Below, piece by piece: positions 1,146 to 64,000 of a stretch of 64,000 nucleotides of DNA (position 1 is the stretch's first letter; each line of letters begins with the position of its first letter). Source of the DNA: Opitutus terrae PB90-1 (GTDB lineage: Bacteria > Verrucomicrobiota > Verrucomicrobiia > Opitutales > Opitutaceae). The DNA is taken from the NCBI RefSeq assembly GCF_000019965.1, contig NC_010571.1:3915001-3979000 (forward strand), given 5' to 3'. A model generated the notes under the pieces. It ran no database searches. It was not told the origin of the DNA and saw only the letters and a program-made list of their open reading frames with translations. Both the position numbers and the translations under genes were made by a program.

Positions 1146-1163
1146 GGGCTAACGTGCCCACGC

Positions 1164-3223: not shown

Positions 3224-3340
3224 GTCGAGAGCCGAACGCGGCATGCTGGCGAAATCAGACTGACTTTCGCGAGGGCGGGTTGCTGCTACTAGGGCTGAGG
3301 TCGCCTACAGTTCGCGTCTGGGCGCGCCGAAATCGAGGCA

Positions 3341-3748: not shown

Positions 3749-3764
3749 GACGACACGGAGAGCA

Positions 3765-6946: not shown

Positions 6947-8428
6947 ATGATTTCCATTTCACCTGTCGCCGCTGCGGACGCGGCTCACCGCACGCTCCGG
7001 GCTCTGGCTGCAACTTGCTGGGCTGCGACATGCGTGTGCGCCGTGATTGCGGCGAGCGCCGCGGTGGCGCAAGCGGCGGCGCCGCGACTCAAGGTAGATC
7101 CGACGACTCAGCGGTTTCTCGTCTACGAAGATGGCCGGCCATTTTTTTACCTGGCCGACACGGCGTGGGAGCTCTTCCACCGGCTGAAGATCGACGAGGC
7201 ACGCGAGTATCTCGACGATCGCGCGGTGAAGGGGTTTACCGTGATTCAGGCGGTGGCGCTGGCGGAGCTGGACGGGCTGCACACGCCGAATGCCTATGGA
7301 CACCTGCCGCTGATCGATGACGATCCGACGCGGCCGGCGGAGCAGCCGGGGCCGAACAACGATTATTGGGATCACGTCGACGCGATTGTCGATGAAGCGG
7401 CGCAGCGCGGGATGTTCATCGGGCTGTTGCCGACATGGGGCGACAAGTGGAACCTGGCAAAGTGGGGCAAGGGCCCGGTGATCTTCACACCCGAGAATGC
7501 GGAGTGGTATGGCGAGTGGATTGGCCGACGCTACCGCGACAAGCCGGTGATTTGGATTCTGGGCGGAGATCGACCGATCGAAAACGACACGCACCGGCAA
7601 ATCATCGAGGCGATGGTGCGCGGACTGCGGCGAGGCGACGGCGGGGCCCACCTGATCACGTTTCACCCGCGCGGCGGCGACAGCTCGTCGCGCTGGTTTC
7701 ATGGAGCCGGGTGGCTCGATTTCAATATGCGGCAGAATGGTCACGAGGTGAATTCGCTGCGTTACGTCGGCACCCGCGCAGATTACGATTTGTCGCCGAC
7801 GAAACCGGTCATCGATGGCGAACCGATCTACGAGGATCACCCGATCGAGTTCGACGCGCCGAAGAACGGGCACTCGGTCGCCGCCGACTGCCGGCGCGCG
7901 CTTTACTGGGACTTGTTCAGCGGCGCGTGTGGGCACACCTACGGTCACCATTCTGTCTGGCAGATGGCGGCGCCGGAGCGGGAGCCGGTGAACATGCCCT
8001 TGCTGTCGTGGCGCGCGGCGTTGCAGCAGCCGGGGGCCGGGCAGATGCAGCATGCGCGGCGATTGCTGGAGTCACGGCCGGTGCTCACGCGGATTCCGGA
8101 TGATGCGCTGATCGTGTCGGATGAACCCGCCACAGCGGTTCCGGGCGCGGGGCGTTACCGGATGGTCGGAACGCGCGATCGCTCCGGCTCGTGGGCGGCG
8201 ATCTATGTGCCGGTGGGCCGGCCGTTCACGGTGAAGACCAGCTTGCTGACCGGAGAACGGCTCAACGTGTGGTGGTTTAGTCCACGCACCGGGGCGGCGA
8301 CCGCGGCCGGGCAGATCGCCCGGGCCGATACGCATCGGTTCGTCCCGCCGGATCCGGGCGAGTCGCTGGATTGGGTACTGGTGCTCGACGACGCCTCGCA
8401 AGACTTCCCCGCGCCGGGCGCGCGCTGA
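6947..8428 (+). CDS. exported GH140-type (DUF4038, apiosidase-like) glycoside hydrolase
   Basis: With the ATG at 6947 the protein has 493 residues. I prefer this start to an in-frame GTG at 6749 because a signal peptide begins there ([19 protein letters not shown], cleavage near VAQAA). The (beta/alpha)8 DUF4038/apiosidase-like catalytic domain (PF13204) opens with [20 protein letters not shown]. Candidate catalytic carboxylates are Asp208 in WILGGDRP and Glu292 in [15 protein letters not shown], both in the positions conserved in the family. [10 protein letters not shown] and [11 protein letters not shown] are also typical. The last ~100 residues match the small C-terminal beta domain usually found in these enzymes (PF12904). 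GH140 members remove apiose-linked groups from rhamnogalacturonan II; the actual substrate here is inferred. Divergent pairing with a GH78 enzyme fits that pathway. Confidence 0.88.
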
Positions 8429-23800: not shown

Positions 23801-26800
23801 GTTCCACGTTCAAGGACTCGGCGCCGAAGTTCCTCGCGGCGGATCAGGACAACGCCGGCAAACTGGTGTATGCAGCGGGCGGGCTGTTCAACGACGGCAA
23901 CCGCACCCAATACGCGATCGACCTCAAGAGCACGTTCCTGAAATCGATCTTCTCGTCCTACCACGCGCTCGGCTTCGACGTTTCGGATCCGGCGCGGCCG
24001 GTGGCGGCAACCGCCCGGTCCAGCGTGATGACCGCGGATGAGATCCGGCGCTACGTGGTGAACGGCGAGGGCGATGGGCTCTTCCTCGGCTCCGGCCGCG
24101 CGCCGGACTCGCGTTCGGTCGCCGTGACGAAGGTGATAGACCTCGAAGGCGATGCGCGCTCCCTGCTGCTGGTGGCGAATGGCGCCGTCGGGCTGACGGT
24201 CATGGACATTGCGGATCCGTCCGCCATGACGCTGCTCGGCACGCGACTCGGCAGCGGACTCGCCGCCGACGTGCTCGGCGTGGAAAACCTCGCCGCGGTG
24301 GCCGTCGCCGGGAACGCCGAGCGGGTCGACTTCTACGACCTGACCAAGCCGGAAGATCCGCTGCTGGTCGAGTCCGTGGCCGTGCGGGCGAACCGCATCG
24401 CGATCAATCAGGGTTTCCTTTACGCCACGAACACGCGGCTGTTCGAACCGTGCTACGACGAGGAGGCGGAAATCCCGATGTTCCCGGGCAAGACGGCGGC
24501 CGATCCGGATTATCCGACGCCGCGGTTCGGTGGCACGTTTGGCGCGCACGCGGCCGCCTGCACACCGCAGGAATACGGCTCGGGACCCGGTTTGCCGATC
24601 AAGTCGGGAACGCTGCAGATCATCGACCTGAACCGGCCTGACCGTCCCGTGCTGCACACGCTGACGTATGCCGCCGGCCAGCCGCTGGACGTCGCGGTGG
24701 CGGACGGACGCATGGCGGTGGCGGTCGAGTATGACGGGTTCTATCTCTACGACGTGCGTGGAGTCTCGGCGAGCCCGAGCAGTGCGCCGGTGCAGCTGGC
24801 GCACGTGACGTTGCCCGCGAGTCGCGTGGCCACGCCGGGCCGCTACAGCCGGATCGAGATTCGAGGCTCGCTGCTCTACGTCGCCGCGATGGAAGGCGGC
24901 GTGCAGATTTACGACATCGCCGATCCGGCCCAGCCGAAGCTGGTGAGTGCGGGCAACGTGGAGATGGCGATGGATGTGGAGCTGGTCGAGGACGCGGTGA
25001 TCACGACCGGCGATCGCGAGATCAAGGTCTTCGACACGCCCTTCACCTCGGTGATCAGCCTCTTCCCCGGACCGGGCAACGAGCGCGTGCCGGCGGACGC
25101 CCATCTGCGCGTGCATTTCTCGCGCAACATCTACGCGCCGAATCTGACGCTGGGCGGAAATTTCAAGGTGCTCGATGCCCAAGGCCAGCAGGTCGCCGGC
25201 GCGTTCGCGTTCCCGGAAACAGGGACCGGCAACTATATCGTCGAGTTTGTGCCGACCGGCGGATTTACGCCGGGCCAGACGTATCGGCTCGAACTTACCT
25301 CGGGCATCACGGACGAAGAGGGTGGGCGGCTGCTCGCGCCGGTGGCGCACACCTTCCGCATCGCTCCCGCCGGCGCGGCGATTCCGACGATCGGGCGGCT
25401 CGAACCGGTCTACTTTTCCGTTCGCGGCGGCGAGACGGTCACCGTCGACGGCGGCGGATTCGAAGCGGGGCTGGCGAACGTCACGCTGAACGGAGTCGCG
25501 GCGGGTTCGATCCACGTGGTCGATGGCCAGCACTTCACCTTCCAAGTGCCGCCGCTACCGGCGACCGGCATCGGCACCCTTGCGCTCACGAATCCGAGCG
25601 GACTGAGCGACACGCGATTCGGGAAATTCGTCGCGGTGCGACTGCTCGAGGACGTGACGCTGCAGGCGAGCCGCAACTCCGGGACGGCGCTGGGCGGCGA
25701 GCGACTGACGATCAGCGCGTCGGATCTGGCGTTCCCGCCGGGCACGCGCGTCGTGTTCGAAGGTGATGCCTTCTTCACCACGGGCGGGAGCGGCGTGCAC
25801 GGAACGCGTGACTTGATCGAGCCGGATCTCGAGTCGCTGCGCCAGCTGTCCGGGCTCGTGCCCCGGGCGGATTTCCCCGGACGGGTGGACGTCAAGGTGA
25901 TCGCGCCGAACGGGACCGAGCGGGTGGTCGGCGAGTATACCTACATCCTCGAAAAATCGACCGTGCTGCCGGTGCACGTCGGTGCCGCGGCGCTGCGGGT
26001 GGTCAACAACACGGCGTATCTGGTCGGTCCGGGGTTCGACGTGTTCGATCTGAGCGTGCCCGGCCGCGCGGTGTTGAAGGGACATCTCGGTGCGATCGGC
26101 AGCGCCTACGACGTGTGCGTGCTTGACGACATGGCGATCGTCGCGGCCGGCGAGCGCGGGCTGCAGGTCTTTGACGTGCACGACCTCGCGCACATCTTCC
26201 AGGTGGACGAGGCGGCGACGTTTGGCGACGCGCGTGGACTGAAGTTCTTCCGCGGGCTGCTGCATGTGGCGGTTTCAAACCGGCTGAATCCGGAGGAATC
26301 GTTGATACAGCTGATCGATCCCGCGACGCCGCGGCTGCGCACCACGGGCCAGATCCGCGTGCCGGGCGCATTGCTCGACCTCGACGAAGCGGCTGGCATT
26401 CTCTACGTGCTGCGTGTGCGCGAGGGCGAACTGCAGCTTATCTCGCTCGATCCGCTCAATCCGACGGTGCAGACCGCGAGGACGATTTCCGCGGCGCACT
26501 ATCAAACGCTGCCGAATCATGCGTCGCTGGTGGTCAAGGGCGGACTCGCTTACCTCAACGTCGGTCAGCGGGTGCTCGTGGCCGATGCGGCGACCGGCGC
26601 GGTGCGCTTCTACGCCGAAGCCCCCACGAAAGTCACCGCGTTCGACTACTGCCGCGGCACGTTGTATGTGAATCACGACGTGAATCCCGCCGTGACGGGC
26701 GACGAGGTGATTACGCCTTACGTGGTGCCGATCCTGAACGTCGAGGAGGTCAGCCCGGCCGCAGATCGGCTGGCGCGATTGAACGAGCCGGTGCGGATCC

Positions 26801-29800
26801 AGTTCACGTTGCCGGTGAATCCCTACACGGTGACGGAGGACATCAACAACAACGGGGTGCTCGATGCCGCGGAGGACCGGAACGGAAACAACGTCATCGA
26901 TGCGGGCGAGGATCTGAACGGCAACGGGACGCTGGATCGGGCCGAGGATATCAACGGCAACGGCGTGATCGACCGATCGGTGCGCGTGTATCGCGACGTG
27001 AACGCGAACGGCGTGCTGGACGAGCCCGAGAAGGCGGACGGCGCCGCAGTCCCGGGCAAGCTCGAGACGCTCTATGTTGAAACAACACCGGTGGTCGAGT
27101 TCACGCCGACGGAGGCGTGGCAGCCGAGCACGCGCTACTTCGTGCAGGTGATGTCGCCCCCGGCGGAGCAGAAGCGGCCGCTGGATCCGTTCGATCCCAC
27201 GACGCTGCCAGGCGTGCGCGAACTCGGCACGGCGGCGCTGACGGCGGACGTGTTGACCTCATTTACCACGGCGGCGAGTGCGAGCGACCGGATCGTGATC
27301 ACGTCGGTGACCGCGCGTTTCAATGTCGCCACCAAGGCCAACGAGCTGGTCGTGACCGGCAGCGGGTTTGAGCCCGGGTCCTCGCTCACGGTCGGTGATG
27401 CGCTCTTCGCGGCGGGGACGACCCCGCTGCAGTATGTGAATGCCGGCCGGCTCCAACTCGCGCTCCCGGCGCTGGAGGGCCGCGATCTCGGTATGGCGGC
27501 GGTCACCGTCCGCAACACCGACAATGCGAGCGCCACCTACTACGGCGCGATCGTCTACGTTTCGACGGTCCAGGTTTACAGCATCTCGCGCAACACGAGC
27601 GCGCCGGATGGTGGGATCCGCGTCAGCCTCACCGGTGCCGGATTCCTGCCGGGACAGACCCGCGTGCTGGTCAACGGCGTCGAAGCCGAGGACGTGCGTG
27701 TCGAGAACGTCAACACGCTGAGCTTCATCGTGCCTGCGGGCGATTTCGGCACGGTGGACGTGACGGTGATTGTCGGCGCCAACACGGCGGTGCTGCCAAA
27801 GGCGCTGACCTATACCTTGTCGACGATCCCGCAAGGACCGGACCTCGGACTCGATGCGATCGCGGGTCTCGAGCTGACGGGCGATCTGCTCATCGCCTGG
27901 TCCAAGGATCTCCAAGGCCATGCGACGCTGCAGAACGTCGACGTCAGCGATCCGCTCGATCTCACCGCGCTCGATTCCGTGGTCTATCAGAACGGCAGCG
28001 CGAGCTTCTACGATGCCGCGACGGACACGGCCTTCGTGGGCCGCGGCAACGAAGTCTTCCGGCTCGACAACAGTCTGCCGGACGAAATCTACGCGGTCGA
28101 CAGTGTGATGACCGCAGCCGGCTCGGTCGTCGGCGCGATCGCCGCCCAGGGCAACTTGCTCGTGGTGGGAACCGATCGCGGGCTCGAGTTCTTTACGCTG
28201 ACGCCGTTCGGCCGCTACGTGAAGTCGCGTGAGATCACCGTTGCCGGTGGAGTGGGGGCATTGGCCCTTCAAGGCACCTCGCTCGTGCACGCGCAGACGG
28301 CCGGCTCCGAACAGCGGCTGGCGATCCGTGATCTCGAGTCGGCGGACTTCGCGGTCCGCGGCACCGTGGTGCTCGCCTCGGCGCCGGTGCGGATCCAACT
28401 CGTTGGCAATCTCGCCTACGTGGCGTGCGAGGCGGCGGGCGTGGCGCAGATCGTCGACTTCACCGCGCGCGATCTGCCGGTCACGCTCGGTTACGTGAAC
28501 CCGCGGGACGATTTCGCGGCGGGCGAGGCGCCGGTCCTGGATCTCTTCGCTGATGGTTCGACGCTGTTCCTGGCGTGCGGTCCGGGCGGCATGCAGGTGT
28601 TTGATCTCACCGATGTGGCCCAGCCCGCTTTCAAGCAGTATGGCCAGGTGAATGGGAACGCGACGGCCGTGCGCGCGGCCCGCGGTTACGTCTACGTGGG
28701 CACCTCGCTCGGCCAGCTGGTGGTGTTGCCGTTCAGCGATCTCGGCATCAGCGGAGTCACGCCCGCGTTCGGCACCAAAGCCGCCATCGAAACGGCCGTG
28801 AGCCTCCGGTTCACCGGCATCCTGCAGACGCCCGTAAACGCGTCACTGTTCTCGCTTCGGGCCGGAACGAATCCGTCGGTGGCCGGCACGCTGATTCATT
28901 CGATCGACGGCAACAGCTCGCTGCTCACGTTCCGGCCGACGACGCCGCTCCAGCCTGACACCGACTACACGGTCACGCTGGCGGCCGGGCTCAGCGATGT
29001 TGCCGGCCGGACGCTCGCGGGCAATTTCTCCAGCCGGTTCAGGACCGTGCCGCAGGCCGGCGCCACGCAACCGGCGATCACGAGTGTCAGTCCCGCCTAT
29101 GGCTCAGCCGCCGGTGGCGATGCCATCACGATCCTTGGCCGGAATCTGCGCGCCGATACGCAGGTGCTCGTCGGCGGCACGGCGGCGACCCAGGTGGTCG
29201 TGTCGGACAACGGCACGCGGCTGACCGCTACGGTGCCGGCGGGCGCGGGGCTGGGTTCAGTGCGGGTCGTGAACCCGGGCGGGCTGGGCGATGCCGCGCT
29301 GTTCCAGTTCACCTACCTCGGCGTGCCGCAGGCGACGTCCGTGTCGCCGGTGCGGGGCAGCTTCCTCGGTGGCGAAACCGTGACGATCGTCGGCTCCGAT
29401 TTCTTCCCGGGCACGAAGGTGCTGTTCTCCGGCCGGCAGGCGCAGAGCGTGATGGTGCAGGAGTCGGGCAAGCTCACCTGTGTTACGCCCGACGGGGTGG
29501 TGGGCTTCAGTTCGATCGAGGTCCAAAACCAACTGCGCGTGCTCGACTCGTCGACGGCGGCCAACGCGTATCTCTTCTCGATTCCGCGGACCGGGCTCAC
29601 CGACACGCTGGCCAATCCGGAGTTTGTGGTGACGGCGGGCAATGTGCCGCAGATGATCCTCGGGACCGCGGGCACGCGGCTGGCCGTGTTCAACGCCTTC
29701 TCGCCGCTCTTCCCGGTGCGGTCGGGCTCGGTCGATTTCGGCGAGCGCACGCCGCGTCACGTGGCGCACGACGGCACGCTGGCGTATGTCGCGCTCGGCG

Positions 29801-32800
29801 ACCAGCTGGCGATCGTCGACTTCGCGGACTTCGAGTTCCCCTCGGTGCCGCTGACGAAGCCGTTCAGCAAGGACACGGATCTTCGCAAGACCCAGATCGT
29901 CGGTCCGCTGCTCGTGGCTTGGGATGTGCTGCGGAACAGCCTGCTCGTGCTCGACCGCGAGTCGCCGCAGCTCTCCGTGCTGCTGGATCGGCCGGCGGCT
30001 GCGGGCGAAACGATCCGGAACCTCTACGCGCTGCCGGCCAGCGACACGCACGTCGCGGTGCTGGTCGAAACCAGCAGCGGGTTGCGGATCGATGTGGTGG
30101 ACGCAACGGCTGCGACGCTGCCGGCGACGCAGAGCTTCGCGCTGACCGGTCAGCTCCGCGCGATCAGCTTCTACGGCCGCCGGTTGATCGCGACGTCTGA
30201 TGCGGGCATCACCGAGTTCGATCTCGACGGCGCGGTGGCTCCGCACGTGCTCGCCTCCGGCAACTACGCGTGTGCGGTGCTCCGCAACGGCGTGCTGTTT
30301 GCCGCGCGCGATGACGTCGTTGAGGTGATCGATCTCGCTGATCCAGTCTCGCCCGAACTGAAGACGGTGGTGACGATGGGTGGCACGATCCGTGCCCTCG
30401 AGGAGTCGGCCGGCATCCTCTACGCGAGCTTGATGACGGACCGGCTCGCGACCGCGACCACCCCGTATACCTACCTGTCGGCGAAGACGCCCGTGCACGG
30501 TGCCGCGGCCTTCGCGGCCAACGCCCCGATCAGCGTCCAGTTCCCGCTGCAGGCGGCGCAGAGCACGATGCTCGCAACGCAGTTCGACCTGGCGGTCAAT
30601 GGCGTCACTGGCGTGCCCTACACGCGGACCCTGACCGACCGCACCCTGACCGTCACGCCCTCGGTGCCTTTGGTGGCCAACGACAGCGTGCGGCTCGACA
30701 TCACGCCGGCCAACGGGCCGTTGATCGGCGACGAACTACGCACCAGCAACGTCCTGGCTGCCACGGTCACACGGGCGCTCGATACGACGCTTACGATCAC
30801 TGCGATGGCGCCGCGACGGCTGCCGCTCGGCACGGAGGGCGTGCCGGTGACCGTCAGCGGCGCGGGGCTCGACACCGTGACGGCGGTGCGCGTGGCCGGC
30901 GCGCCGGTCGCCATCGACCAGCAAGCCGCGGGAGCGATGCAGTTCACGGTGGTGCCGTCAACTTTGCCGGCGTTCGCGAAAGTCGAACTGATCACCAGCG
31001 CGGGCGCAGCCGAAGTTGCCAACCTCGCCGGCGTGCTGGCGGTCGTGCCGCCGTTGACCGTGAGTTCGGTGACTCCGGCGGTGACCGGCTACGTCGCGGG
31101 CAGCGTCGCGACGCTCGAAGGCACTGGCTTCACGCGCGATCTCCGGCTGTTCGTGAATGATGTGCTGACTCCGGTCGGCAGCGTCGCGGAAACTCAACTG
31201 AGCTTTGCGATCCCGGCGGGGGACCGCGCATTGACGCTCAGGCTGGAGCGGGAGAGTGCCGAGCCGGTGGTGCTCACCGAAGCGATCCGGCGCGTGGATG
31301 ACCAGCGGCCGCGCGTGCTTAGCGTGACGCCGACGCCGCCGGCTCACGGCGTGCCGTATGAGCAGACCTTCAGCGTGAAGTTCTCAGAGGCGATCGATAC
31401 GGCGCGGTTCGCCGCCGAGTCGCCGCTCTACCTGCTGAACGCGGCCAACGAGCGTGTGCCGGCCACCTACCAGTGGTCGCAACTGAACAGCCTCGTGGAG
31501 CTGATTCCGGATTCGTTCCTCGCGGCGGCCACGGTTTACACGCTTCATTTCGACGGCGCCGTGGATGCGAGCCCGGCGGCGAACGCGTCGCCCGCGGAAG
31601 ATCATTTTGTCCACGCCTATCTCACGCTCGATGAAACGCCGCCGACGATCAGCCTGACCGTCCCGGCGGCGAATGCGACGCTGCTCGCCCGCTCGCTGGT
31701 CACGCTGGAAGCCGCGGTGAGCGACAATCTCCAGGGTGTCGCCGTCCTTCGCAACGCGCAGCAGCAGCCCGTCGAGGAGGGCGTCACCGCGGACCGCGTG
31801 ATCTTCTACGTGAACGGTGAGGCGATCGGCGCCGCGCAGTCGCTCACGAACGGCGTCGCACGCCGTGCCTACACCGTGCCGGAGGTGGCCGCGACGTTGT
31901 CCCGGACGTTCCACGCCACCGCGACCGATCGCGCCGGCCATCAGACGACCTCGCAGCCGGTGGTCGTTTCCGTTCGGCCGACGATTCCGCCGACGATCAC
32001 CTTCGCTGAACCGACGCCGGCGGAGGGCGCCAGCCTCGCGGAGCTGACGACGTTCACCGTGGCGACGACGACCACCTCCGACCTGCCACTCGCCAGGGTT
32101 GAGTTTCGGATTGATGGCGTGCTCGTGGGCACATCGACTGCGAACAATCCCGTCTTCGCGGCGCTGCCGGTTCCGGCCAAGCCGCCGGGGACGACGTTCG
32201 TGGTATCGGTCACCGCGTTCGACAACCAGAACGTGACGAGCATCGCCGCGACGCGGACCTACGCCGTGGGACCGGAAACCACGCCGCCGATGGTCGCCTT
32301 CATCAGTCCGCCCGAGGGCGCGAAGGTGAAGCCGGGTGAAACCGTGCGCGTGGCGGTGAATGCGACCGACAACAAGGGAATCGCGTCCGTGGCGTTCCAC
32401 GTGAATGGCGCGGCGACGCCGGCGGCGGTTTGCACCGTCGCGCCCTACAGCTTCGTGTTCGACGCGGCCGGAGCCGTGGCGGGAACGACGATCAGCCTTC
32501 GCGCGGTGGCGACCGACTTGACCGGACTCACCAGCGAGGCGAGCCGCAGCTTCACCATCGTTGCTGATGACGTGAAGCCGCTCGTCGCGATCGCGGAGCC
32601 GGCGAACGGCGCGACCTTCACGGAAGGCCAGATGATCACCGTGAACGTCCAGGCCTCCGACAACACCGGCGTCGCGCGCATCGAGCTCACGATCGGAGCC
32701 CAGACGCTGACCGACAGCCAGGCGCCTTATGTCTTCGTGGTGCGCGCCCCGGCCTCCGAGAGCGGATTGACGGCGTTCAATCTCACGGCCGTGGCCGTTG

Positions 32801-53655: not shown

Positions 53656-53680
53656 CGCTCGATCCGCCTCCGTTTTTTCC

Positions 53681-56600
53681 GTGAAACAGATCCGTCAATT
53701 CTGCCACCTCTTCCGCCGCAGCGCGCTGCTGACCCTCAGTGTCGCGATCGCCTGGAGCGGGCTGTCGGCGCGCGCGGAGATCATCAACCTCACGGTCGAA
53801 CAGGCGGGCCAACCGCTCCCGGCGGTGGGCGTTTACGCTTTCCGAGCAGACGGCTCCTACCTGGGATCTGCCAAGAACACCAACAGCGCCGGTGTCGCCG
53901 TGTTCGATCTCCCACTCAGCTCTGCGGTGAAGTTCCGCCTCAGTCGCAATGGCACCACGTTCTGGTCCGACCTCATCACGATTGCCGGTGCGCACCGCTT
54001 CATCCTCCCCGTGGACACCACCGTGCTGCTCAGCCGCGGCGGTGAGGTGCTCGGGCAATATGCCGTGCTCATCCGCAACGAGGGCGGCGATCCTTTCGGG
54101 AACACGCAACTGACCGATGGAAACGGGATCGCCCGCTTCACGCTGCCCGACGGCACACCGTTCAGATTCTACGTGGACGCGGACGGCCGGCAGTTTTTCT
54201 CGCCGGTCTACACGGCGCCCGTCGCCACGACCTTCGCACTGCCGCGCACCACGATCGTGACGCTGACCAAGGCGAGTGCACTGGTGGCAGGCAGGACGCT
54301 CTACGCCTACAGCGACGCCGGAACCTATTTGAACTATTCCCGCCCAACCGACGCCACCGGCATTGCGCAGTTTGCGCTGGACGAGGGCGTCGCGGTTAAG
54401 TTCCGCGTGGAAGACGCAGGGGCTTGGTTCTTCACCTCGGTTCTGACTACGCCCTCGGCCACGACGTTCAACCTGCCGGCGGACACTCTCCTAACTGTTA
54501 CCAGGGACGGAGGTCCGCTCGCCCAGACCCCGGTGCAGGTCTACGATGAATACGGCACATCCCTGAGCTACTCGCGCGTCACGGATGCGAACGGCGTGGC
54601 GCGTTTCAGCCTGGCCGGAGGGCGGCGGGTGAAGTTCCGCGTGGACGCTGAAGGCCGCATGAATTTTTCGTCGGTGGAGACCACCCCCGGCGCCTTCAAC
54701 ATGGCGGTACCAGCGCCCACGAGGGTGACCGTGACCAAGGCTGGCGTGCCCCAGGCCAACCGGACGATCTACGCCTGCGACGAGGCCGGTGTTCCCACCG
54801 ATTACCTGCGAATGACAGACGCGAGCGGCGTGGCGCAGTTCTGTTTCGATCCAGGCCGCGTGGTGAAGTTCCGGGTGGACGATCAAGACGCACGGTACTT
54901 CAGCGATATCCTCACGGCACCGGCCGCGACGACCTTTGCGTTGTCGGCCGACACCACGATGACGGTTACACGCGAAGGCGTCCCGCTGGCCCAAACCATG
55001 GTCTTCGTTTGCGACGAAGCGGGAGCTTACACCGGGTACTCGCGCGTTACGGATGCGAACGGCGTGGCGCGTTTCAGCCTGGCCGGAGGGGGGCGGGTGA
55101 AGTTCCGCGTGGACGCTGAAGGCCGCATGAATTTTTCGTCGGTGGAGACCACCCCCGGCGCCTTCAACATGGCGGTACCAGCGCCCACGAGGGTGACCGT
55201 GACCAAGGCTGGCGTGCCCCAGGCCAACCGGACGATCTACGCCTGCGACGAGGCCGGTGTTCCCACCGATTACCTGCGAATGACGGACGCGAGCGGCGTG
55301 GCGCAGTTCTGTTTCGATCCAGGCCGCGTGGTGAAGTTCCGGGTGGACGATCAAGACGCACGGTACTTCAGCAATATCCTCACGGCACCGGCCGCGACGA
55401 CCTTTGCGTTGTCGGCCGACACCACGATGACGGTTACACGCGAAGGCGTCCCGCTGGCCCAAACCATGGTCTTCGTTTGCGACGAAGCGGGAGCTTACAC
55501 CGGGTACTCGCGCGTTACGGATGCGAACGGCGTGGCGCGTTTCAGCCTGGCCGGAGGGCGGCGGGTGAAGTTCCGCGTGGACGCTGAAGGCCGCATGAAT
55601 TTTTCGTCGGTGGAGACCACCCCCGGCGCCTTCAACATGGCGGTACCAGCGCCCACGAGGGTGGCCGTGACCAAGGCTGGCGTGCCCCAGGCCAACCGGA
55701 CGATCTACGCCTGCGACGAGGCCGGTGTTCCCACCGATTACCTGCGAATGACGGACGCGAACGGCGTGGCGCAGTTCTGTTTCGATCCAGGCCGCGTGGT
55801 GAAGTTCCGGGTGGACGATCAAGGCGCGCAGTTCTTCAGCAATATCCTCACGGCGCCGGCCGCGACGACCTTCGCCTTGCCGGTCGACACTACGGTGACG
55901 GTCACGCGCGAGGGCGTTTTGGTCGCGCAGACCTCCGTCTATGTTTACGACGAGGCGGGAGTGTCCACGGGATACTCGCGCGTCACCGACGCGAACGGCG
56001 TGGCGCGTTTCAGCCTGGCCGGAGGGCGGCGGGTGAAGTTCCGCGTGGACGCTGAAGGCCGCATGAATTTTTCGGCGGTGGAGACCTCCCCCGGCGCCTT
56101 CAGCATGGCGGTACCAGCGCCCACGAGGGTGACCGTGACCAAGGCTGGCGTGCCCCAGCCCAACCGGATGGTCTACGCCTGCAACGAGGCCGGCGTTCCC
56201 ACCGACTACATGCGATTGACGGACGCGAACGGCGTGGCGCAGTTCTGTTTCGATCCAGGCCACGTGGTGAAGTTCCGCGCCGACGATGCTGGCACGCGTA
56301 AATTCACGAATACGATCACCGCGCCCGCCAATGTCGCTTTCGATTTGGACGCCGCTAGCAAGCCGACGCTTACCTCGGCGGTCCTACGACCGGAAAACTT
56401 CGAACGAGGCGCCGACTTCGCGCTCGAGATTACCGGCACCGCCATCGAATCGGGTTCCGCCACGATCGACTTCTGGAAGGCGGACGGGGGAACTGAGCTG
56501 ACGCTCCCGTTCATGGCCGTCGCCGGCAAATGGATCGCCGCTGGAGTTACCCCAGCCACCGTCCCGCGGGCTCCCGATGGCGCGACCTCGGTGACAATTC

Positions 56601-59600
56601 CGGTGACCGTCACCTTGCGCGGTCCCACCGGCATGGAAACGACCGCGTCGCTCACGTTTGCCTTGCGCGACGACACCAACCCGCCGGCGATCGCGCTCGA
56701 TCAACCGACGATCGCGCAGATCGACGCGCCGAGTGCGAGCCTCACCGGCACGGTTAGCCTCGATGCCGTGTCGCTCGCGCTCGTGCGTTCCGGCGCGCCG
56801 TCGCTTCCGGTGACGTTCGATCCCACGGACGGCCGGTTCAGCATCGAGGTGCCGTTGCAGGAGGGCTTGAACAATTGCTCGCTGGTTGCCCGTGATTTCC
56901 TCGGCAACCAGTCCCAGGTCGCGCTGGCGCTGACTCGCACGTTGCGACCGCCGGTCATCGCCTTCACCGAGCCGATCAGTTTCAGCGACTCGGTCAACAC
57001 GACCACACTCCGGCTCGCCGGCACGGTGACGGACGCAAGTGCCGTCACGCTGACGATCAATGGCACGGAGGTCACACTGGGGGCCGGCGGGGCGTTCGAA
57101 TGGCTGCTGTCGTTGACCAGCGAGGGTCCGAACACGCTCACCGTCGTCGCCGAAGACGCGTTTCACCAGAAAACGACGGAGACCCACACGATCTATCGGA
57201 TCACCGAGGCACCGGCACTCGCGCTGACCTCACCGGCGACGGACCGCCTCACGACGCGCGTTCCGTCGCTGCAGGTCACCGGCGCGGTCGGCGCGAGCGC
57301 AACCCAGTTGTCCGTGAACGCCATCGCGGTCGCCGACTTCGCCAACGGTGTCTTCGCGCATCCGGTGGTCCTGACGCCGGGCGACAATCTCCTGGTCGTC
57401 GAGGTCCGTGATGCGCTCGGCAACACGCGCACGGTGCGTCGCACGGTGGTCCTCGATCAAACTCCGCCGACGATCACCTGTTCCTCTCATAGCACTGGCT
57501 TCGTCACGAACCAACCGGGCGCGACCGTCGTCGGCCGGGTCACCGGCGGTCAAACGCTGGTGGTCAACGGCCAGCTCGTGACGCTCGCTTCCGACGGCAC
57601 GTTCTCGACTCCGGTCACGCTCACGGAAGGCACCAGCTCGATCGTGCTCGAGGCGCAGGATGCCGTGGGCAATGTCGCCGTGCTTCGGATTCAAGGCACG
57701 CTGGACACGATTGCGCCGCTCGTGCTGATCGAACGGCCGACGCCTGGCGCCACCTTGGCCGCGGCGAACGTCGAGATCGCCGGAACGGTCGACGACCTCG
57801 CTGCGGTTCTCACTCTCAACACCGCGCCGCTGGCGAACAGCAGCGGCGCGTTCCTGGCTGCGATACCGCTGGCGAACACGGAAACGACCCTGACGGTATC
57901 CGCGCGCGACGTCGCTGGCAATGTCGGCACCGCTGCCGTCACGGTTCGGCAGGACCTCACGCCGCCCGTCGTGGTGTTTACCGCGCCAGCAAACGGCAGC
58001 CTGACGCGCGCGCCGAGCGTGCGCGTGACGGGCACGGTCGACGACCCGGCGGCTACGGTCGTGATCAACGGCCGCTCCGCCCTCGTGTCGCAGGGCCGGT
58101 TCGAACTCGCCGACTTCGCGCTGAGCGAAGGGGAAAATGTGTTGACCGCGATCGCCACCGACCCACTGGGCAACACCTCCGCCCCCGTGTCGATCCTGGT
58201 CACGCGTGACTCCACGGCGCCCGCCATGCCGTCGTTGATCGATGCGCCGGCTTACGTCCGCGCGGACCGTGTGACCCTGCGCGGCAACAGCGATCCAGGC
58301 GCGAGCATTGCGATCACGGGCGGGCTCGCGACGGTGACCACGACGGCGGATGCCGCCGGAGTGTTCAACGCCACCGTCCTGCTGGTCGCGAATCGCGCGA
58401 CGGATCTGATCATTCGTGCGACGGACAGCAGCGGCAACGAGAGCGCCGCTCGGGTCCATACCATCGTGTCCGACACGCTTCCGCCGGTGATTACGCTCAC
58501 GCGACCGGCTGTCGGCGCGAACCTTTCGACGGCCGCGGTCGAGGTGTTTGGCACCGTCGCAGATGCCAATCCTCCGGCGATGGTCACCGTGAACGGCCTG
58601 TCGTACGTGCTTTCCCCCGCCGGCCAGTTTGGCTGCCGATTGACGCTACCTGACGGCGCCGGACAGATGATCACCGTCACGGCCACGGATCTGGCAGGCA
58701 ACCAGGCGCAACGGACCACGGCCGTGAACATCAACGACGTGCCGGGCGATGAAGCCGCTCCCGTCGTGCTGGTCCTGCGGCCCGCCTACGACGCCGTGGT
58801 GCCGACGGCCAATATCGCTGCGACGGTGTTGATCGTCGATGAATCGCCGCTCACGAGCATCGTCGTTGGCGGCAGCCCGGTGATCGATTCCGACAACGAC
58901 GGCCTGATCACGGCCGACGTGAGCGTCGACGGAAATGGGGAGTTCACCGTCGTCGTCACGGATGCGCAGGCGCTCACCACCACGGTGACTCACCGCGTGC
59001 AGGTGCAAGGCGCAGTGCCGGAGACGCCAACGATCCAGCGCGTCAGCCCCGAGAGCCCGACGGCGGAAGGACAGGTGGTCCTCTATGCGAGCGCGCAGCC
59101 CGGACTACGTTACGAGATCTTGGGCGGCCTGCTGGCGAAGCAAACCGGCACGGTCGGCGCGGACGGGAAGATCGTCGCCACGATTCCGCTCACGAAGAAC
59201 GCGACCAATTCTTTGCGGCTCTCGGTGATCGGTGCGAACGGGCTCGCCTCGACGCCCGCGACCGTCGAGGTCGTCCATGACAACGTGCCACCGCAAGTCA
59301 TGGCGACGACGCCGGCGGCGGCGTCCGAAGGCGCCGCATTGAACAGTCCGGTTCGAATCACGTTCAGCGAGCCGGTCCGGTCCGCGGAGTTGGCCGGCAT
59401 CGAGGTGCGCGCTGGCAACGCCGTGGTCGCCTGCACGCGATCGCTGTCAGGTGACGGCAGAGAGGTGACTCTGACGCCGTCGACCGCGTGGGAGCAGTCG
59501 GTGCTGGTGCAGGTGACCGTGCCCTCGACGGTCGCGGACCTCGTCGGCAACCCGCTCGGCGCTGCGTATGTCTATTCGTTCAAGACGCTCGATTCCGCGG

Positions 59601-62600
59601 CGCCGGCGTCGCCGTTGGTAAACCCGGTTCCACCGCGCACCAATCGGCTCACGCTGGTGCTCACGGGAACCGCCGAGCCGCTAAGCCGCATCATCGTTTC
59701 CGGTGCGGCGGCGGCGCTGCCGACCGCGGTGAATGCCGACGGGACGTTCTCGGTGGCGGTGACCTTGCACGCGAACACGCTGAATACGCTGCTCGTTTCC
59801 GCGAGTGATGCGGCGGGCAACAGCTCCGCACCGGTCTCGATTTCGATCGCCCACGACGATCGTGCGCTGACGATCGTGTCGTCTGTGCCGGCGGATGCCG
59901 CGACGAACGTCGCCTTGAACACGGCGATCGCGGTGACCTTCAGCAGCGCGATCGCTCCGGCTTCGGTCGCGGGCGTGACGCTCGTCAGCCCGGCCGCGAT
60001 TCCGGGCACGGTTGCGGTGCAGGACAACATCGTGTCGTTCACGCCGGCCGCGCCGCTCGCCGCAGGGAAGGACTACGAGATCGTCGTTCCGGGGACGGTC
60101 GCCGACTTGTCCGGCAATCGTCTGGGCACCACCCAGCGGATCGGTTTCTCCACCACCACAGGCACGGCAATCGCAGTGCCGATCGTCTACACGGCTCAGC
60201 CGACGGGCGCCACCAACCGCGTGAGCGCGACGATCACCGGCTATTCGAATCCGGGCACGAAGCTCCTCGTGAGCGGCGGGGAAGCCGACTTCGAGTTCCC
60301 GGCGACCGGTGCGATCGACAGCACCGGGCTGTTCACCCTCGAGGTTCCGCTCCGGCGGAATGCGACCAACACGATCCTGCTGCGCGCGCGCGATGCGCAG
60401 GGCGTGATCTCGCCGAGCGTCACGGCGCTGGAGGTCCGTCAAGACTCCACGGCGCCGACGGTCGTTTCCACGATTCCGGCCAACGGCGCGATGAACGTGG
60501 AACCCAACGCGTCGTTCTTCGTGGAGTTCTCCGAGGCGGTTCAGCCTGGACCGCTGACTGCGACCGTGCCGGCGATCCGGCTGTTCGACGCGCAGAACCG
60601 GGTGGTCGCAGGGTCGTGGATTCTGTCAGCCGACGGGCGTGGCGCCACGCTGTACCTGACGCGCGTGCTGACGCCGAAGACAAGTTACAGCTTGCTGATC
60701 TCAACGGCGATCCGCGACCTGGCCGGCAATCCGCTGCCGAGCGCGGTCTCGGTGGATTTCGTGACGGCGGCGAGCACCGAACTGGAACGTCCCGCCACGC
60801 CGGTGTTGGATCCGCTCGCGTCAACCAAAACCACGCAGCCGTCGATCACACTGAGCGGCAGCGCTCCGGTGGGCACGCAGGTGCGCGTATTTGGCGGCCA
60901 ATCAGGAGCGACAGCCGCCGTCGACGCCGCCGGTCGATTCACGGTCTCGGTCGATCTCGTTCCGAACGCTGTCAACCCGCTCGCGGTCGTCGCGGTGGCA
61001 GACGGCGCGATGTCCGCGCCCGCGACGATCACGATCACGCAGGTGCAGCATGCGCCGGGAATTCGCGTGCTGTCGCCGCAGCCGAATGTCGAATACAACA
61101 ACCGCTCGGTGACGGTTGCCGGCGTGATCGACGATCCCGATTCGATCAAGAGCATCTCCGTCAACGGCGCGTCGGCGGCGATCGTTGGCCGCTACTTCTT
61201 CCGCCAGGTGGTGCTCGATCCCGCGGCCGGACCGAAGTCCGTCACCGCGATCGCCACGCTCCAGGACGATTCGACGGTGGAAGCGACGGTGTCGTTCTCG
61301 CTGCTCGTCGAGCCGGCCGGGACGGACACGAAACCGCCGATCCCGCGATTCATCTTCCCCGAGGAAGGAGACAGCCTGAACGGCGAAGTGGTGGAGGCGC
61401 TGTTGACGGTGGAGGAGGGCGTGCAGCTCACGTCCGTCGACATCGACCGGGTCGTCGCTCACCAGGTCGTTGGCAACATTTTCTTTATTCTCGCCCGCAT
61501 GCCGCAGCAGGGGCCGAACACGATCACGGCGCGCGCCGAAGACGCGGCGGGCCTGATTGGAACCACGTCGGTGCATGTCACCATGGACTCGATCGGCTTC
61601 GCCGCGGCGCCGGCCGTAACGCCCGTACCGTCGTTGACGCCGGACCGGGCGGTGACACTCACGGGCACCGCGGAGCCGGGCAGCACGATCGTCGTGCTCA
61701 ACGGACTCGTGCCCGTGCGCACGATCGTTTCGGCGACGGGCGACTACACGATCTTGGTTCCGCTGAACCCGAACGCGGCGAACCACCTGCAGGTTGTCAC
61801 GACCGACGCGGCCGGAAATCTGTCGCCGGTCACCACGATCGACATCACGCACGACGACACCGCGCCGACGATCGTATCCAGCACGCCGTCCAACGGGCAG
61901 ACCGGCGTGCCGCAAAACGCCACGATCGAGGTCACATTCTCCGAGCCGCTGAACGCTACGACCACGACCGCCGATGACGCGGTGGTGCTGCGCAGCGCAC
62001 TCGGCCAGGCCATCGCGCGCAACGTCCTCCTCTCGGCGGACGGCAAGACGATCCGGATCATTCCCACGTTCAAGTTCCTCCGCAGTGACACCATCACGGT
62101 CGAGCTTGATGCCTCGATCGCTGACGAGCACGGCTATCCGCTCGGACGCGACCACACCTTCAGCTTCACGACGGCGGTGGGCCAGACCACCGTGTCAGGG
62201 ATCGTCGTCGATCCGCAGCTGCGGCCGCTCGCCAACGTCAAGGTCGGCATCCAAGGCAGCAACGTGGCCCAGGTGACTTCGAGTTTCGGCACGTTCCTGC
62301 TCGATGAGGTGCCGCTCGGTGACCAGATCCTCACGGTCGATGCGCGGCCGGATCCTGCGACCGGAGTCACGCCGCAGGGCGACGCGCGACGATTTGGCTA
62401 CCTGGAGTTTGTCGTGCCCGTGCGGCGCGACACCGACAACGGACTCGGCCGGCCAATCTTCATGGTTGAGACGGACGTGTCGACGAGCACGCCGCTCGCG
62501 ACCACCGGTGGCGAGCAGGTCATGACGTTCACGCCGGCCCAAAAGGATCTGACCGGCTTCTCAATCACGTATCAGGCCGGAGCCGCGAGGTTCTCCGACG

Positions 62601-64000
62601 GCACCGTCCGCGGCAGTCTCACAGCTACGCGCATCGACCCTGCGAATATTCCCGACCGGCTGCCCTCGGGGGCGATTCCACACTTCCTAGTCGAGATCGG
62701 TCCGGACGGACTCGTGTTCGACACGCCGGCGCGACTCGGCTTCCCCAACGTTTACGGGCTCGCGGTCGGGGCCGAGGTCGTCGTGTTCCATTTCAAATAC
62801 GGCGTGCACAATTACGCCGAGCTCGGCCGCGCCGCCGTCGCAGCGGATGGGCTGATCCACACCGGGCCGATGCTGACCGAGGCCGGCTTCGTGGGCATCG
62901 TTCCGGCGTCGGGATCGTTTGATCTCACCCGTGCCTACCTGGAAGGTCGGGTGGTGGACGCTGCTGGCACCGGGCTCGCCGGAGTCTCGGTCAACGCGAT
63001 CGCTGGCAGTTCGTATGTCGTTACCGACGCGGCCGGGCGCTACTCGATCCCGCTGCCCGACGTGCGGCTGGAACTTATCCGCACCTTCGCGACGGTCTCG
63101 ACGGATCTCGGCGCGCGCAGCGGCGAGTCGCCAAGCCTCGTGTTCCAATCGCAGCTCGTGACGCTCAACCCCTCTGGCGTGACCAAGGTGCCGGACATCG
63201 TGGTGGATAGCTTCTTCCTTGGCGGGAGCATTCGCTACGTCGACGCCGACGGCGGGCGGATCCCCGCGACCGGGCTGGCGTACGGGGACGACGGCAAGCT
63301 GGTGTCGATCGCCCCGGAGACTGCGCGCGGAGTGGACGTTTTTGTTTACCGCCGCCTCAGCGCCGAAGGTGCGCTGCCGGAGTATGACTCGGAACCGTAT
63401 ATGCGAACGCTAGCGAGCGTTCCGCTGATCGACGATCACTTCGACGCGTCGTTCGCGCTCACGTTCCTGGGCTCGCTGCAGCCCACCTCGACTTCAACTT
63501 CCACGTCAACTCCGTCCGCGGGTGACGTCGTCAAGATCGTGGCCTTTGACCGGAAGACCGGCTTCTACGGCGAGACCGATCTTAAAATCCCCGCCGCGGC
63601 GGAGGCGAACAGCGGGAACGCATCGCTCGACGTGCTGGTGAATCTCGAACTGCGGCCGCCGGTGGTGAAGCTCGACATGAACCGCGTGTTCTTCCTCGAC
63701 GGAATCCGCCGTCGGGCGAACATCCCGCATCGCGGCATCGCGTTCACGAGCGACGAATACGTGGAGTTTAAGACGACCTGGACGACGCCGGTCGCCTCAC
63801 CGCTCGATCGCGCGGAGCTTTCGTTGGCCGGCCGACTGCGCGTCAACTCGATCGATTACCAGACCGACTACGGCATGCCGGTGCGCGGCGGAGAACACTT
63901 CCGCGTGCTCGAGATACGCGAAGCGGTTTTCCCGAATCGGCTGCAGGTGCTGCAGCGCGACACGGACGTCGGCGTCGAGACGTTCTCGATCTCCCGCGAC
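53681..64000 (+). CDS. second giant exported surface protein, 3' end beyond the window
   Basis: The frame opens at GTG 53681, 25 bp after the previous stop, and has no stop codon to 64000 (3,440 codons). A signal peptide supports this start: basic RRSALLTLSVAIAWSGLSARA with cleavage before Glu33. Domain order seen: eleven transthyretin/CNA-B/carboxypeptidase-regulatory-like domains (residues ~33-892), about a dozen Ig-like domains of the glucodextranase-B/Big_6-9 kind, four Big_5 domains, a carboxypeptidase-regulatory-like domain (~2834-2890), a beta-rich module (~2955-3085), a second regulatory-like domain (~3086-3145) and an unrecognised region. The short gap without promoter or terminator suggests co-transcription with the first giant gene. 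Function is probably a surface stalk presenting something at the unseen C-terminus. Confidence 0.9.
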   Translation, partial: MKQIRQFCHLFRRSALLTLSVAIAWSGLSARAEIINLTVEQAGQPLPAVGVYAFRADGSYLGSAKNTNSAGVAVFDLPLSSAVKFRLSRNGTTFWSDLITIAGAHRFILPVDTTVLLSRGGEVLGQYAVLIRNEGGDPFGNTQLTDGNGIARFTLPDGTPFRFYVDADGRQFFSPVYTAPVATTFALPRTTIVTLTKASALVAGRTLYAYSDAGTYLNYSRPTDATGIAQFALDEGVAVKFRVEDAGAWFFTSVLTTPSATTFNLPADTLLTVTRDGGPLAQTPVQVYDEYGTSLSYSRVTDANGVARFSLAGGRRVKFRVDAEGRMNFSSVETTPGAFNMAVPAPTRVTVTKAGVPQANRTIYACDEAGVPTDYLRMTDASGVAQFCFDPGRVVKFRVDDQDARYFSDILTAPAATTFALSADTTMTVTREGVPLAQTMVFVCDEAGAYTGYSRVTDANGVARFSLAGGGRVKFRVDAEGRMNFSSVETTPGAFNMAVPAPTRVTVTKAGVPQANRTIYACDEAGVPTDYLRMTDASGVAQFCFDPGRVVKFRVDDQDARYFSNILTAPAATTFALSADTTMTVTREGVPLAQTMVFVCDEAGAYTGYSRVTDANGVARFSLAGGRRVKFRVDAEGRMNFSSVETTPGAFNMAVPAPTRVAVTKAGVPQANRTIYACDEAGVPTDYLRMTDANGVAQFCFDPGRVVKFRVDDQGAQFFSNILTAPAATTFALPVDTTVTVTREGVLVAQTSVYVYDEAGVSTGYSRVTDANGVARFSLAGGRRVKFRVDAEGRMNFSAVETSPGAFSMAVPAPTRVTVTKAGVPQPNRMVYACNEAGVPTDYMRLTDANGVAQFCFDPGHVVKFRADDAGTRKFTNTITAPANVAFDLDAASKPTLTSAVLRPENFERGADFALEITGTAIESGSATIDFWKADGGTELTLPFMAVAGKWIAAGVTPATVPRAPDGATSVTIPVTVTLRGPTGMETTASLTFALRDDTNPPAIALDQPTIAQIDAPSASLTGTVSLDAVSLALVRSGAPSLPVTFDPTDGRFSIEVPLQEGLNNCSLVARDFLGNQSQVALALTRTLRPPVIAFTEPISFSDSVNTTTLRLAGTVTDASAVTLTINGTEVTLGAGGAFEWLLSLTSEGPNTLTVVAEDAFHQKTTETHTIYRITEAPALALTSPATDRLTTRVPSLQVTGAVGASATQLSVNAIAVADFANGVFAHPVVLTPGDNLLVVEVRDALGNTRTVRRTVVLDQTPPTITCSSHSTGFVTNQPGATVVGRVTGGQTLVVNGQLVTLASDGTFSTPVTLTEGTSSIVLEAQDAVGNVAVLRIQGTLDTIAPLVLIERPTPGATLAAANVEIAGTVDDLAAVLTLNTAPLANSSGAFLAAIPLANTETTLTVSARDVAGNVGTAAVTVRQDLTPPVVVFTAPANGSLTRAPSVRVTGTVDDPAATVVINGRSALVSQGRFELADFALSEGENVLTAIATDPLGNTSAPVSILVTRDSTAPAMPSLIDAPAYVRADRVTLRGNSDPGASIAITGGLATVTTTADAAGVFNATVLLVANRATDLIIRATDSSGNESAARVHTIVSDTLPPVITLTRPAVGANLSTAAVEVFGTVADANPPAMVTVNGLSYVLSPAGQFGCRLTLPDGAGQMITVTATDLAGNQAQRTTAVNINDVPGDEAAPVVLVLRPAYDAVVPTANIAATVLIVDESPLTSIVVGGSPVIDSDNDGLITADVSVDGNGEFTVVVTDAQALTTTVTHRVQVQGAVPETPTIQRVSPESPTAEGQVVLYASAQPGLRYEILGGLLAKQTGTVGADGKIVATIPLTKNATNSLRLSVIGANGLASTPATVEVVHDNVPPQVMATTPAAASEGAALNSPVRITFSEPVRSAELAGIEVRAGNAVVACTRSLSGDGREVTLTPSTAWEQSVLVQVTVPSTVADLVGNPLGAAYVYSFKTLDSAAPASPLVNPVPPRTNRLTLVLTGTAEPLSRIIVSGAAAALPTAVNADGTFSVAVTLHANTLNTLLVSASDAAGNSSAPVSISIAHDDRALTIVSSVPADAATNVALNTAIAVTFSSAIAPASVAGVTLVSPAAIPGTVAVQDNIVSFTPAAPLAAGKDYEIVVPGTVADLSGNRLGTTQRIGFSTTTGTAIAVPIVYTAQPTGATNRVSATITGYSNPGTKLLVSGGEADFEFPATGAIDSTGLFTLEVPLRRNATNTILLRARDAQGVISPSVTALEVRQDSTAPTVVSTIPANGAMNVEPNASFFVEFSEAVQPGPLTATVPAIRLFDAQNRVVAGSWILSADGRGATLYLTRVLTPKTSYSLLISTAIRDLAGNPLPSAVSVDFVTAASTELERPATPVLDPLASTKTTQPSITLSGSAPVGTQVRVFGGQSGATAAVDAAGRFTVSVDLVPNAVNPLAVVAVADGAMSAPATITITQVQHAPGIRVLSPQPNVEYNNRSVTVAGVIDDPDSIKSISVNGASAAIVGRYFFRQVVLDPAAGPKSVTAIATLQDDSTVEATVSFSLLVEPAGTDTKPPIPRFIFPEEGDSLNGEVVEALLTVEEGVQLTSVDIDRVVAHQVVGNIFFILARMPQQGPNTITARAEDAAGLIGTTSVHVTMDSIGFAAAPAVTPVPSLTPDRAVTLTGTAEPGSTIVVLNGLVPVRTIVSATGDYTILVPLNPNAANHLQVVTTDAAGNLSPVTTIDITHDDTAPTIVSSTPSNGQTGVPQNATIEVTFSEPLNATTTTADDAVVLRSALGQAIARNVLLSADGKTIRIIPTFKFLRSDTITVELDASIADEHGYPLGRDHTFSFTTAVGQTTVSGIVVDPQLRPLANVKVGIQGSNVAQVTSSFGTFLLDEVPLGDQILTVDARPDPATGVTPQGDARRFGYLEFVVPVRRDTDNGLGRPIFMVETDVSTSTPLATTGGEQVMTFTPAQKDLTGFSITYQAGAARFSDGTVRGSLTATRIDPANIPDRLPSGAIPHFLVEIGPDGLVFDTPARLGFPNVYGLAVGAEVVVFHFKYGVHNYAELGRAAVAADGLIHTGPMLTEAGFVGIVPASGSFDLTRAYLEGRVVDAAGTGLAGVSVNAIAGSSYVVTDAAGRYSIPLPDVRLELIRTFATVSTDLGARSGESPSLVFQSQLVTLNPSGVTKVPDIVVDSFFLGGSIRYVDADGGRIPATGLAYGDDGKLVSIAPETARGVDVFVYRRLSAEGALPEYDSEPYMRTLASVPLIDDHFDASFALTFLGSLQPTSTSTSTSTPSAGDVVKIVAFDRKTGFYGETDLKIPAAAEANSGNASLDVLVNLELRPPVVKLDMNRVFFLDGIRRRANIPHRGIAFTSDEYVEFKTTWTTPVASPLDRAELSLAGRLRVNSIDYQTDYGMPVRGGEHFRVLEIREAVFPNRLQVLQRDTDVGVETFSISRD
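53777..54484 (+). other. second giant protein: three diverged transthyretin-like domains
   Basis: Residues ~33-268 contain three ~78-residue domains with the pattern seen in the following repeat: V-x-x-x-G-x-x-x-x-x-x-(V/L)-Y-A-x-x-(D/E)-x-G-x-(Y/F), then T-D-A-x-G-(V/I)-A-x-F-x-L, then V-K-F-R-(V/L). They share little DNA identity with one another or with the later copies and probably represent the ancestral, unamplified part of the array. Confidence 0.7.
54485..56356 (+). repeat. four in-frame 468-bp tandem repeats encoding paired 78-residue domains
   Basis: Units are 54485-54952, 54953-55420, 55421-55888 and 55889-56356, each of 156 codons, coding for residues 269-892. Each has an A domain (SRVTDANGVARFSLAGG, then VKFRVDAEGRMNFS) and a B domain (TKAGVPQANRTIYACDEAG, then GVAQFCFDPG). 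Units 1-3 are nearly identical at DNA level and unit 4 has more changes. Every B domain has two cysteines about 26 residues apart in a protein with few others, suggesting one disulfide per B domain. The folds resemble CNA-B/transthyretin-like stalk domains. Confidence 0.9.
56357..62170 (+). repeat. second giant protein: Ig-like stalk with interspersed Big_5 domains
   Basis: Residues ~893-2830 read as Ig-like repeats. A typical copy has P-x-V-x-(F/L)-x-x-P-x-x-G then VRVTGTVDDPAATVVINGRS, followed by F-x-x-x-(V/L)-x-L-x-x-G-x-N and a closing A-x-D-x-x-G-N. This matches glucodextranase-B/Big_6-9 type domains. Four SbsA-like Big_5 domains are near 59290, 59860, 60440 and 61850 (TIVSSTPSNGQTGVPQNATI). 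Domain limits are approximate and no enzymatic motif was seen. Confidence 0.65.
62171..64000 (+). other. second giant protein: regulatory-like domains and an RHS-associated-type module
   Basis: GIVVDPQLRPLANVKVGIQG and YLEGRVVDAAGTGLAGVSVN start two carboxypeptidase-regulatory-like domains (near 62178 and 62935). Between them, ~62545-62935 carries IPDRLPSGAIPHFLVEIGPD, FDTPARLGFPNVYGLAVG and a VAADGLIHTGPMLTEAGFVG ending. This order of motifs resembles a module often found N-terminal to RHS/YD repeats in large bacterial surface proteins. A short Ser/Thr linker (TSTSTSTSTPS) lies near 63486-63520. The last ~150 residues are not recognised. Confidence 0.5.

Follow-up and report, generated by a model that had tools for sequence, protein, structure and literature searches.

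Two giant genes separated by 25 bp begin a row of four genes on the same strand, spanning approximately 65.6 kb of the Opitutus terrae PB90-1 genome. A probability of about one in two is assigned to this row being a secreted polymorphic-toxin locus, with the giant genes, g1 and g2, as its front. The best reading, predicted from sequence, is of a stalk-and-warhead toxin operon preceded by a giant filament gene. The row is marked by its gene order and close spacing, by an overlap between g2 and g3, by the Rhs architecture of g3, by differing C-termini of the g3-like proteins in one distant genome, and by a shift in base composition at its 3′ end. The window analysed comprises 64,000 nucleotides, positions 3915001 to 3979000 of a single-contig genome of 5,957,605 bases (G000:C1). 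Window coordinates are used throughout and values above 64000 lie beyond the window end. The window truncates the locus, such that the last 10.4 kb of the row (8821–74408) is outside it.

Layout of the row and the g1–g2 junction

All four genes are on the + strand. The first, g1 (8821–53655), starts with GTG and encodes 14,944 aa with a signal-like N-terminus. It is followed by g2 (53681–65458), which also starts with GTG and encodes 3,925 aa, the first 3,440 codons being within the window (53681–64000). The Rhs-type gene g3 (65455–73938; 2,827 aa) and the lipoprotein-like gene g4 (73941–74408; 155 aa) are outside the window. At 44.8, 11.8, and 8.5 kb, g1, g2, and g3 are all above the 5-kb giant-gene threshold given in the examined part of PMC5177795. 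Between g1 and g2 there are 25 bp (53656–53680), g2 and g3 overlap by 4 bp, with ATGA over the g2 stop, and g3 and g4 are 2 bp apart. Alternative g3 starts, ATG at 65533 or GTG at 65566, are closer to its signal-like stretch; the 4-bp overlap is therefore valid for the longest reading of g3 and would be removed by the later starts.

An N-terminal hydrophobic stretch is present in all four products, with best 15-residue means of 2.12, 1.66, 1.79, and 2.40 for g1 to g4, the signs of export being taken from this computation. The third-position GC content (GC3) is similar in g1 (0.82) and g2 (0.83). The gene 3′ of g4 is on the opposite strand, and 392 bp separate g1 from an apiosidase gene upstream on the same strand. 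The region just upstream of g1 (3908–8428) has the character of a plant-polysaccharide neighbourhood, containing an alpha-L-rhamnosidase gene (− strand) and the apiosidase gene (+ strand).

The first-pass annotation reported two giant genes 25 bp apart, with no visible promoter or terminator between them. The spacing was confirmed, with the g1 stop at 53655 and the g2 GTG at 53681, as was the lack of consensus signals, based on scanning and folding around the gap. In the g2 frame, the stop at 53597 is followed by only one other ATG, GTG, or TTG start, the GTG at 53621; starting there, g2 would extend 35 bp into g1. The consensus scan of 52600–54300 found no sigma-70-like sites and three terminator-like sites, versus 1.0 ± 1.0 in shuffled sequences, with none inside the gap. 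The nearest of these on the + strand, at 53400–53415, is within g1, approximately 240 bp 5′ of the gap. The gap (+ strand) contains a T6 run, with no significant hairpin or promoter-like site; an intrinsic terminator at this run was rejected, as it has no stem (fold z 0.32, 1.05, and −0.59, no better than shuffles). The same scan was equally silent upstream of g1, where no promoter-like site was found, and 3′ of g4, where no terminator-like site was found; its negative result at the gap is therefore weak evidence.

A single transcript of at least 55 kb had also been proposed. Based on the tight same-strand spacing and a gap without a consensus signal, such a transcript is plausible. With g3 and g4 included it would reach approximately 65.6 kb, and co-transcription of the whole row is likewise plausible. 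Read-through of the g1 stop to fuse g1 with g2 was rejected; the two genes are in different frames and therefore read-through alone would not join them.

Domains and relatives of the giant genes

The stop-free run of 14,944 codons in g1 has a chance of approximately 10^-163 at its base composition, and GC3 by block, 0.72–0.86, is coding-like along the whole length. Pfam domains in g1 are Big_7, Big_5, TIG, LVIVD, fn3, LamG, PA14, CHB_HEX_C, and Ig_3. Profiles seeded from g1 identified 33 Big_7-like domains, 11 TIG, 5 + 1 LamG, four fn3, three PA14, four CHB_HEX, two Ig_3, one LVIVD, and only two Big_5. Pfam found seven Big_5 and 10 TIG stretches in aa 1–8000, compared with the two Big_5 and 11 TIG found in the whole of g1 by the seeded profiles. 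A repeat region at 18088–31320 (+ strand) was read as approximately seven units of beta-propeller, Big_5, TIG, and TIG; when cut by hand, these units align to the first at 21–31 %. The C-terminal end of g1 comes soon after a LamG match.

Comparison of g1 aa 37–526 with 387 genomes of the phylum matched three: itself, G431 (35 %, E 2.6e-50), and, weakly, G146 (E 7.1e-5), which was dropped, its frame having no match at 1e-5. The homologue in G431 is colinear with g1 aa ~147–3803 at 32–37 %, in three pieces in one frame, which are split by two single TAG stops. The contig then ends inside the homologue, and the gene next to it there would lie beyond the contig. The in-frame TAG codons of this homologue (G431:C5; L070:3914-3916 and 5756-5758) may represent decay, sequencing error, or another cause. 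Against G431, g1 aa 12001–14944 gave short or weak matches only, and the other genome of the G431 family had no g1 match (one of two genomes matched). Within the family of the window, g1 aa 37–1393 matched 26 of 97 genomes, including itself, in the Big_7 part only save one short match. Matches at query position 739 or later were dropped, the exception being this short match, in G054 (473–540). Up to four first-look candidates per genome were scored for aa 37–526 and up to six for aa 37–1393, and absences apply at that depth. The Big_7-like matches in the family include frames of 9,597 aa (G077:C36) and 7,002 aa (G043:C11).

The N-terminus of g2 has a hydrophobic, signal-like stretch ending in ARA. 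Pfam and seeded profiles identified Glucodextran_B, Big_6, Big_5, carboxypeptidase-regulatory, and TIG domains. The N-terminal part of g2 also contains a tandem repeat (54569–56277, + strand; 468 bp, 3.7 copies, 95 % matches), a recent expansion in which the copy number may vary.

Relatives of the g2–g3 junction were found in one other genome, G396, a distant verrucomicrobial metagenome-assembled genome (MAG) that is 86 % complete and in approximately 610 contigs; being incomplete and fragmented, its absences mean little. The first 1,000 residues of g3 matched one of 100 genomes in the family, itself. Residues 1–1400 matched 44 of the 387 phylum genomes, only this genome and G396 doing so within the first 1,000 residues; the other 42 genomes, in which the matches start no earlier than g3 aa 1071, were dropped. 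Likewise, the g2 C-terminus (1,105 aa) matched eight of 387 genomes, with only this genome and G396 matching past the TIG domain, those confined to the carboxypeptidase-like part or TIG (six of the eight) being dropped, as were family matches to the carboxypeptidase-like part (five of 100 genomes, including itself). In these searches with g3 aa 1–1400 and the g2 C-terminus, up to two first-look candidates were scored per genome and absences apply at that depth. A profile of the g3 head (A1) returned seven rows on five contigs in the class of G396, all from one of 148 genomes, G396 itself. A contig scan with A1, covering 84,980 species by description, returned 166 stretches and four confirmed loci, all in one MAG, OFTM167, which is taken to be G396.

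On contig C69 of this MAG (L054), a tail resembling that of g2 (464 aa at 36 %) overlaps a g3-like head by 8 bp; the tip of the L054 protein exceeds the Reprolysin_3 cut-off, and the product of the next gene has HEAT repeats and a signal-like start. On C169 (L073), a g3-like end with HELGH, scoring below the cut-off for Reprolysin_5, is followed by an immunity-like gene with a signal-like start and, approximately 290 bp further on, by a second head; there is no g2-like tail between the immunity-like gene and this head. Replacement of the tip is seen among these g3-like proteins, which have a common head and differing C-termini, the Rhs core being undetected in the pieces examined. L054 and L073a align at 79 % over 563 aa and then diverge, as do L042 and L054 after 39 % over 1,151 aa; the gene after the L042 end is pentapeptide-like by eye. 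On C53 (L055), a gene with a pretoxin-HINT domain (6e-24) is followed by two genes that resemble each other by eye, then by one further gene and a fragment of a g2-like tail. The HINT gene has no head in the piece examined and does not match the other g3-like proteins, and is therefore linked by neighbourhood only. Open frames of 16,552 and 9,781 aa are also present in G396 (C162 and C449; L092 and L093).

From these comparisons, g3 appears to be the conserved neighbour of g2, as seen at one junction in one other genome, the fragmented G396. For G431, no match to the g2 tail or g3 head was recorded in the 387-genome searches, its membership of the g3-head sample being taken from its handle number and of the g2-tail sample from equal tallies. 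Since a strong homologue of the g1 N-terminal region is found only in G431 and g2–g3 relatives only in G396, g1 and the g2–g3 module were seen together only here, in a comparison of one genome each way. The first-pass annotation looked to relatives for conservation of the g1–g2 pair; no case was found, and the separation it would have counted against the pair was partly seen, in very few genomes (G431 and G396). It does not seem that g1 is an old partner of g2.

The Rhs gene, its tip, and g4

The order within g3 is head, Rhs repeats, Rhs core, and C-terminal tip. The Rhs/YD repeats and Rhs-associated core are supported by matches to RHS_repeat (3.8e-24) and Rhs_assc_core (57.8 bits, cut-off 32.5). 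The core terminates in DLFGL (aa 2604–2608), and the tip that follows is 219 aa long and contains HESDH. When the tip was shuffled 20,000 times, a motif of the HExxH form arose in 75 cases; this motif is the only indication of an Rhs-type toxin tip domain. The tip (0.60) and g4 (0.61) are low in GC3 relative to the body of g3 (0.75; P 4e-6) and to g2 (0.83; P 6e-10 in the case of g4). The start of g4 has a lipobox-like LVLGC, and its product is predicted to be a small, exported-looking lipoprotein.

The g3 head, which is called propeller-like on its sequence, has no Pfam family at E ≤ 0.1. Neither the tip nor g4 has a Pfam or NCBIfam family above its cut-off, and PADLOC returned nothing for g3 or g4. 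Modelling of the head and tip with AlphaFold gave poor structures, with mean pLDDT 39.0 and 40.9, too weak for a fold search. Searching solved structures gave no match for the head at E ≤ 1; for the tip it gave five, all weak, of which the top two are designed proteins (1e-4 and 5e-4) and the remaining three have E 0.58–0.79, one being a Toxin B chain. None of the five was used. Relatives of the tip were found in one of 387 phylum genomes, itself only. The only other Rhs-core match of the genome (G000:C1:2783472-2783705; L104) is in a frame of 2,033 aa, which has an Ig-like part matching g1. Together, the g3 tip and g4 resemble a polymorphic toxin–immunity locus, with toxin and immunity as their predicted roles.

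Proposed function, alternatives, and comparison with known systems

In the proposed toxin locus, all four products would be exported, based on the N-terminal hydrophobic stretch in each. The g1 product would form a very long beaded filament, adhesive or serving as a spacer, and g2 an Ig-type stalk, the C-terminal ~460 aa of which may act with, and dock, the N-terminal head of g3. Translational coupling could ensure that g2 and g3 are made together; the overlapping stop and start are observed both here and in one distant genome. The Rhs repeats and core of g3 would be a shell enclosing a replaceable C-terminal tip, released by autocleavage at the DxxGL end of the core. The HESDH tip is probably a metallopeptidase, with a target that would be outside the cytoplasm of the neighbouring cell, and the g4 lipoprotein may guard the producer in the same compartment. 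It is probable that g1 is a lineage-specific addition to an older g2–g3 module. A further step, in which g1, g2, and g3 are one surface launcher, is unlikely. In it, the giant filament and Ig stalk would use the g2 tail and the g3 head to dock an Rhs warhead, the tips of which are interchangeable. If true, this would be a contact weapon that dispenses with its own type V, VI, or VII apparatus, and a single ~65-kb transcript would encode its carrier.

Several observations weigh against the toxin locus. The tip and g4 have no family above cut-off, the models are poor, and no relative of the tip was found among the 387 genomes. The conserved g2–g3 pair is in one other genome, at one junction, and on C169 the head follows an immunity-like gene, not a g2-like tail. 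In addition, no promoter-like site precedes g1 and no terminator-like site follows g4, and lipoprotein immunity is exceptional in the examined part of the survey of polymorphic toxins (PMC3482391). The lack of a curated toxin family in the tip and g4 would suit an alternative in which g3 is an exported Rhs/YD surface protein, structural or adhesive, with a tip that is not a toxin and a g4 that is not an immunity protein; many giant proteins of its class are interpreted as surface proteins (PMC5177795, in part). This is unlikely, given the low GC3 of the tip and g4, the HExxH motif, the Rhs core, and the differing C-termini in G396 with different small genes after them.

Alternatively, g1 could be a free-standing adhesin gene, with g2, g3, and g4 a separate toxin unit transcribed from a promoter in the g1 end, the 25-bp spacing having arisen by chance insertion or rearrangement. 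The g1 N-terminal region and the g2-tail/g3-head are together in this genome only, and missing consensus promoters tell little when none is found upstream of g1 either; however, the same-strand spacing, the lack of a terminator-like site in the gap, and the closeness of GC3 in g1 and g2 make this separation somewhat unlikely. The first-pass annotation suggested that g1 and g2 are paired on the surface as a two-partner fibre or an anchor-and-stalk system; on this view, g3 and g4 would simply lie downstream. Both g1 and g2 are indeed giant, Ig-rich, signal-bearing, and 25 bp apart, but neither a two-partner nor a wall-anchor family was found (Pfam for all of g1 to g3; NCBIfam for g2, g3, and parts of g1), g2 has g3 as its conserved neighbour, and no relative was seen with both g1 and g2. 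A fibre pair is therefore unsupported and distinctly unlikely; the contiguity is real, and is better explained by the front of a toxin-like operon than by a two-fibre system. A split of a single gene into g1 and g2 by frameshift, whether a true mutation, a sequencing error, or a programmed shift, is extremely improbable: the g2 frame is open from just past the stop at 53597, overlapping the g1 end in a C-rich stretch, but g2 has its own GTG and signal-like stretch and g1 ends soon after its LamG match.

Two known systems were rejected. For two-partner secretion/CDI, the TPS-type secretion domain is absent from g1, g2, and g3 (Pfam, E ≤ 0.001), and no TpsB-type transporter gene was found among the subset of flanking genes scanned. 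For the Tc toxin complex, Pfam at E ≤ 0.001 gives RHS_repeat alone in g3, with no TcB/TcC-type domains.

For the giant surface proteins of the PVC bacteria, a row that also contains a toxin-like gene and a putative antidote suggests a possible role, to carry a toxin or to aim it. The junction of g2 tail and g3 head is the piece to seek elsewhere. Should all four genes share a single transcript, the message would be very long for a bacterium and well suited to investigating how such messages are completed.

Giant genes or proteins have been reported in PVC bacteria (PMC5177795, PMC12057145, PMC11573180), in the examined parts of which the surface-protein genes are, like those here, far longer than 5 kb and have Ig-like, lectin-like, and carbohydrate-binding domains; here, however, the giant gene and a toxin-like gene are in one closely spaced row. 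In the part of PMC12863079 examined, the lactic acid bacterium Apilactobacillus kunkeei is described as having five giant genes in succession. These are likewise neighbouring genes for extracellular proteins, although they are from another phylum and beta-solenoids are named for them there, rather than the Ig and Rhs domains found here. In general plan, a long stalk and a YD-repeat shell, the locus is also like the teneurins, although here stalk and shell are separate genes. A G396 head homologue matched a teneurin galactose-binding-like model weakly (E 0.0065, one of four members), which does not prove descent.

Among open-licence papers, no title was found naming this locus, and 'opitut' is absent from the examined part of the text of PMC3482391. 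That survey, in the same part, describes polymorphic toxins of Rhs types, HExxH tips, HINT processing, and HEAT immunity proteins, and one family of lipoprotein immunity proteins, which it calls exceptional (Zhang et al., 2012). The present locus is like the Rhs polymorphic toxins with metallopeptidase tips described there in having an exported-looking Rhs-repeat protein, a core, an HExxH tip, and a small neighbouring gene, and in the variation of tips among relatives, here within G396. It differs in that a separate giant Ig stalk gene overlaps the Rhs gene and is preceded by a gene of 14.9 kaa, that the g3 head has no known family, and that the candidate immunity protein is a lipoprotein. The locus is regarded as a probable variant of the known Rhs toxins, in which the giant genes g1 and g2 are in one row with the Rhs toxin-like g3 and g4.
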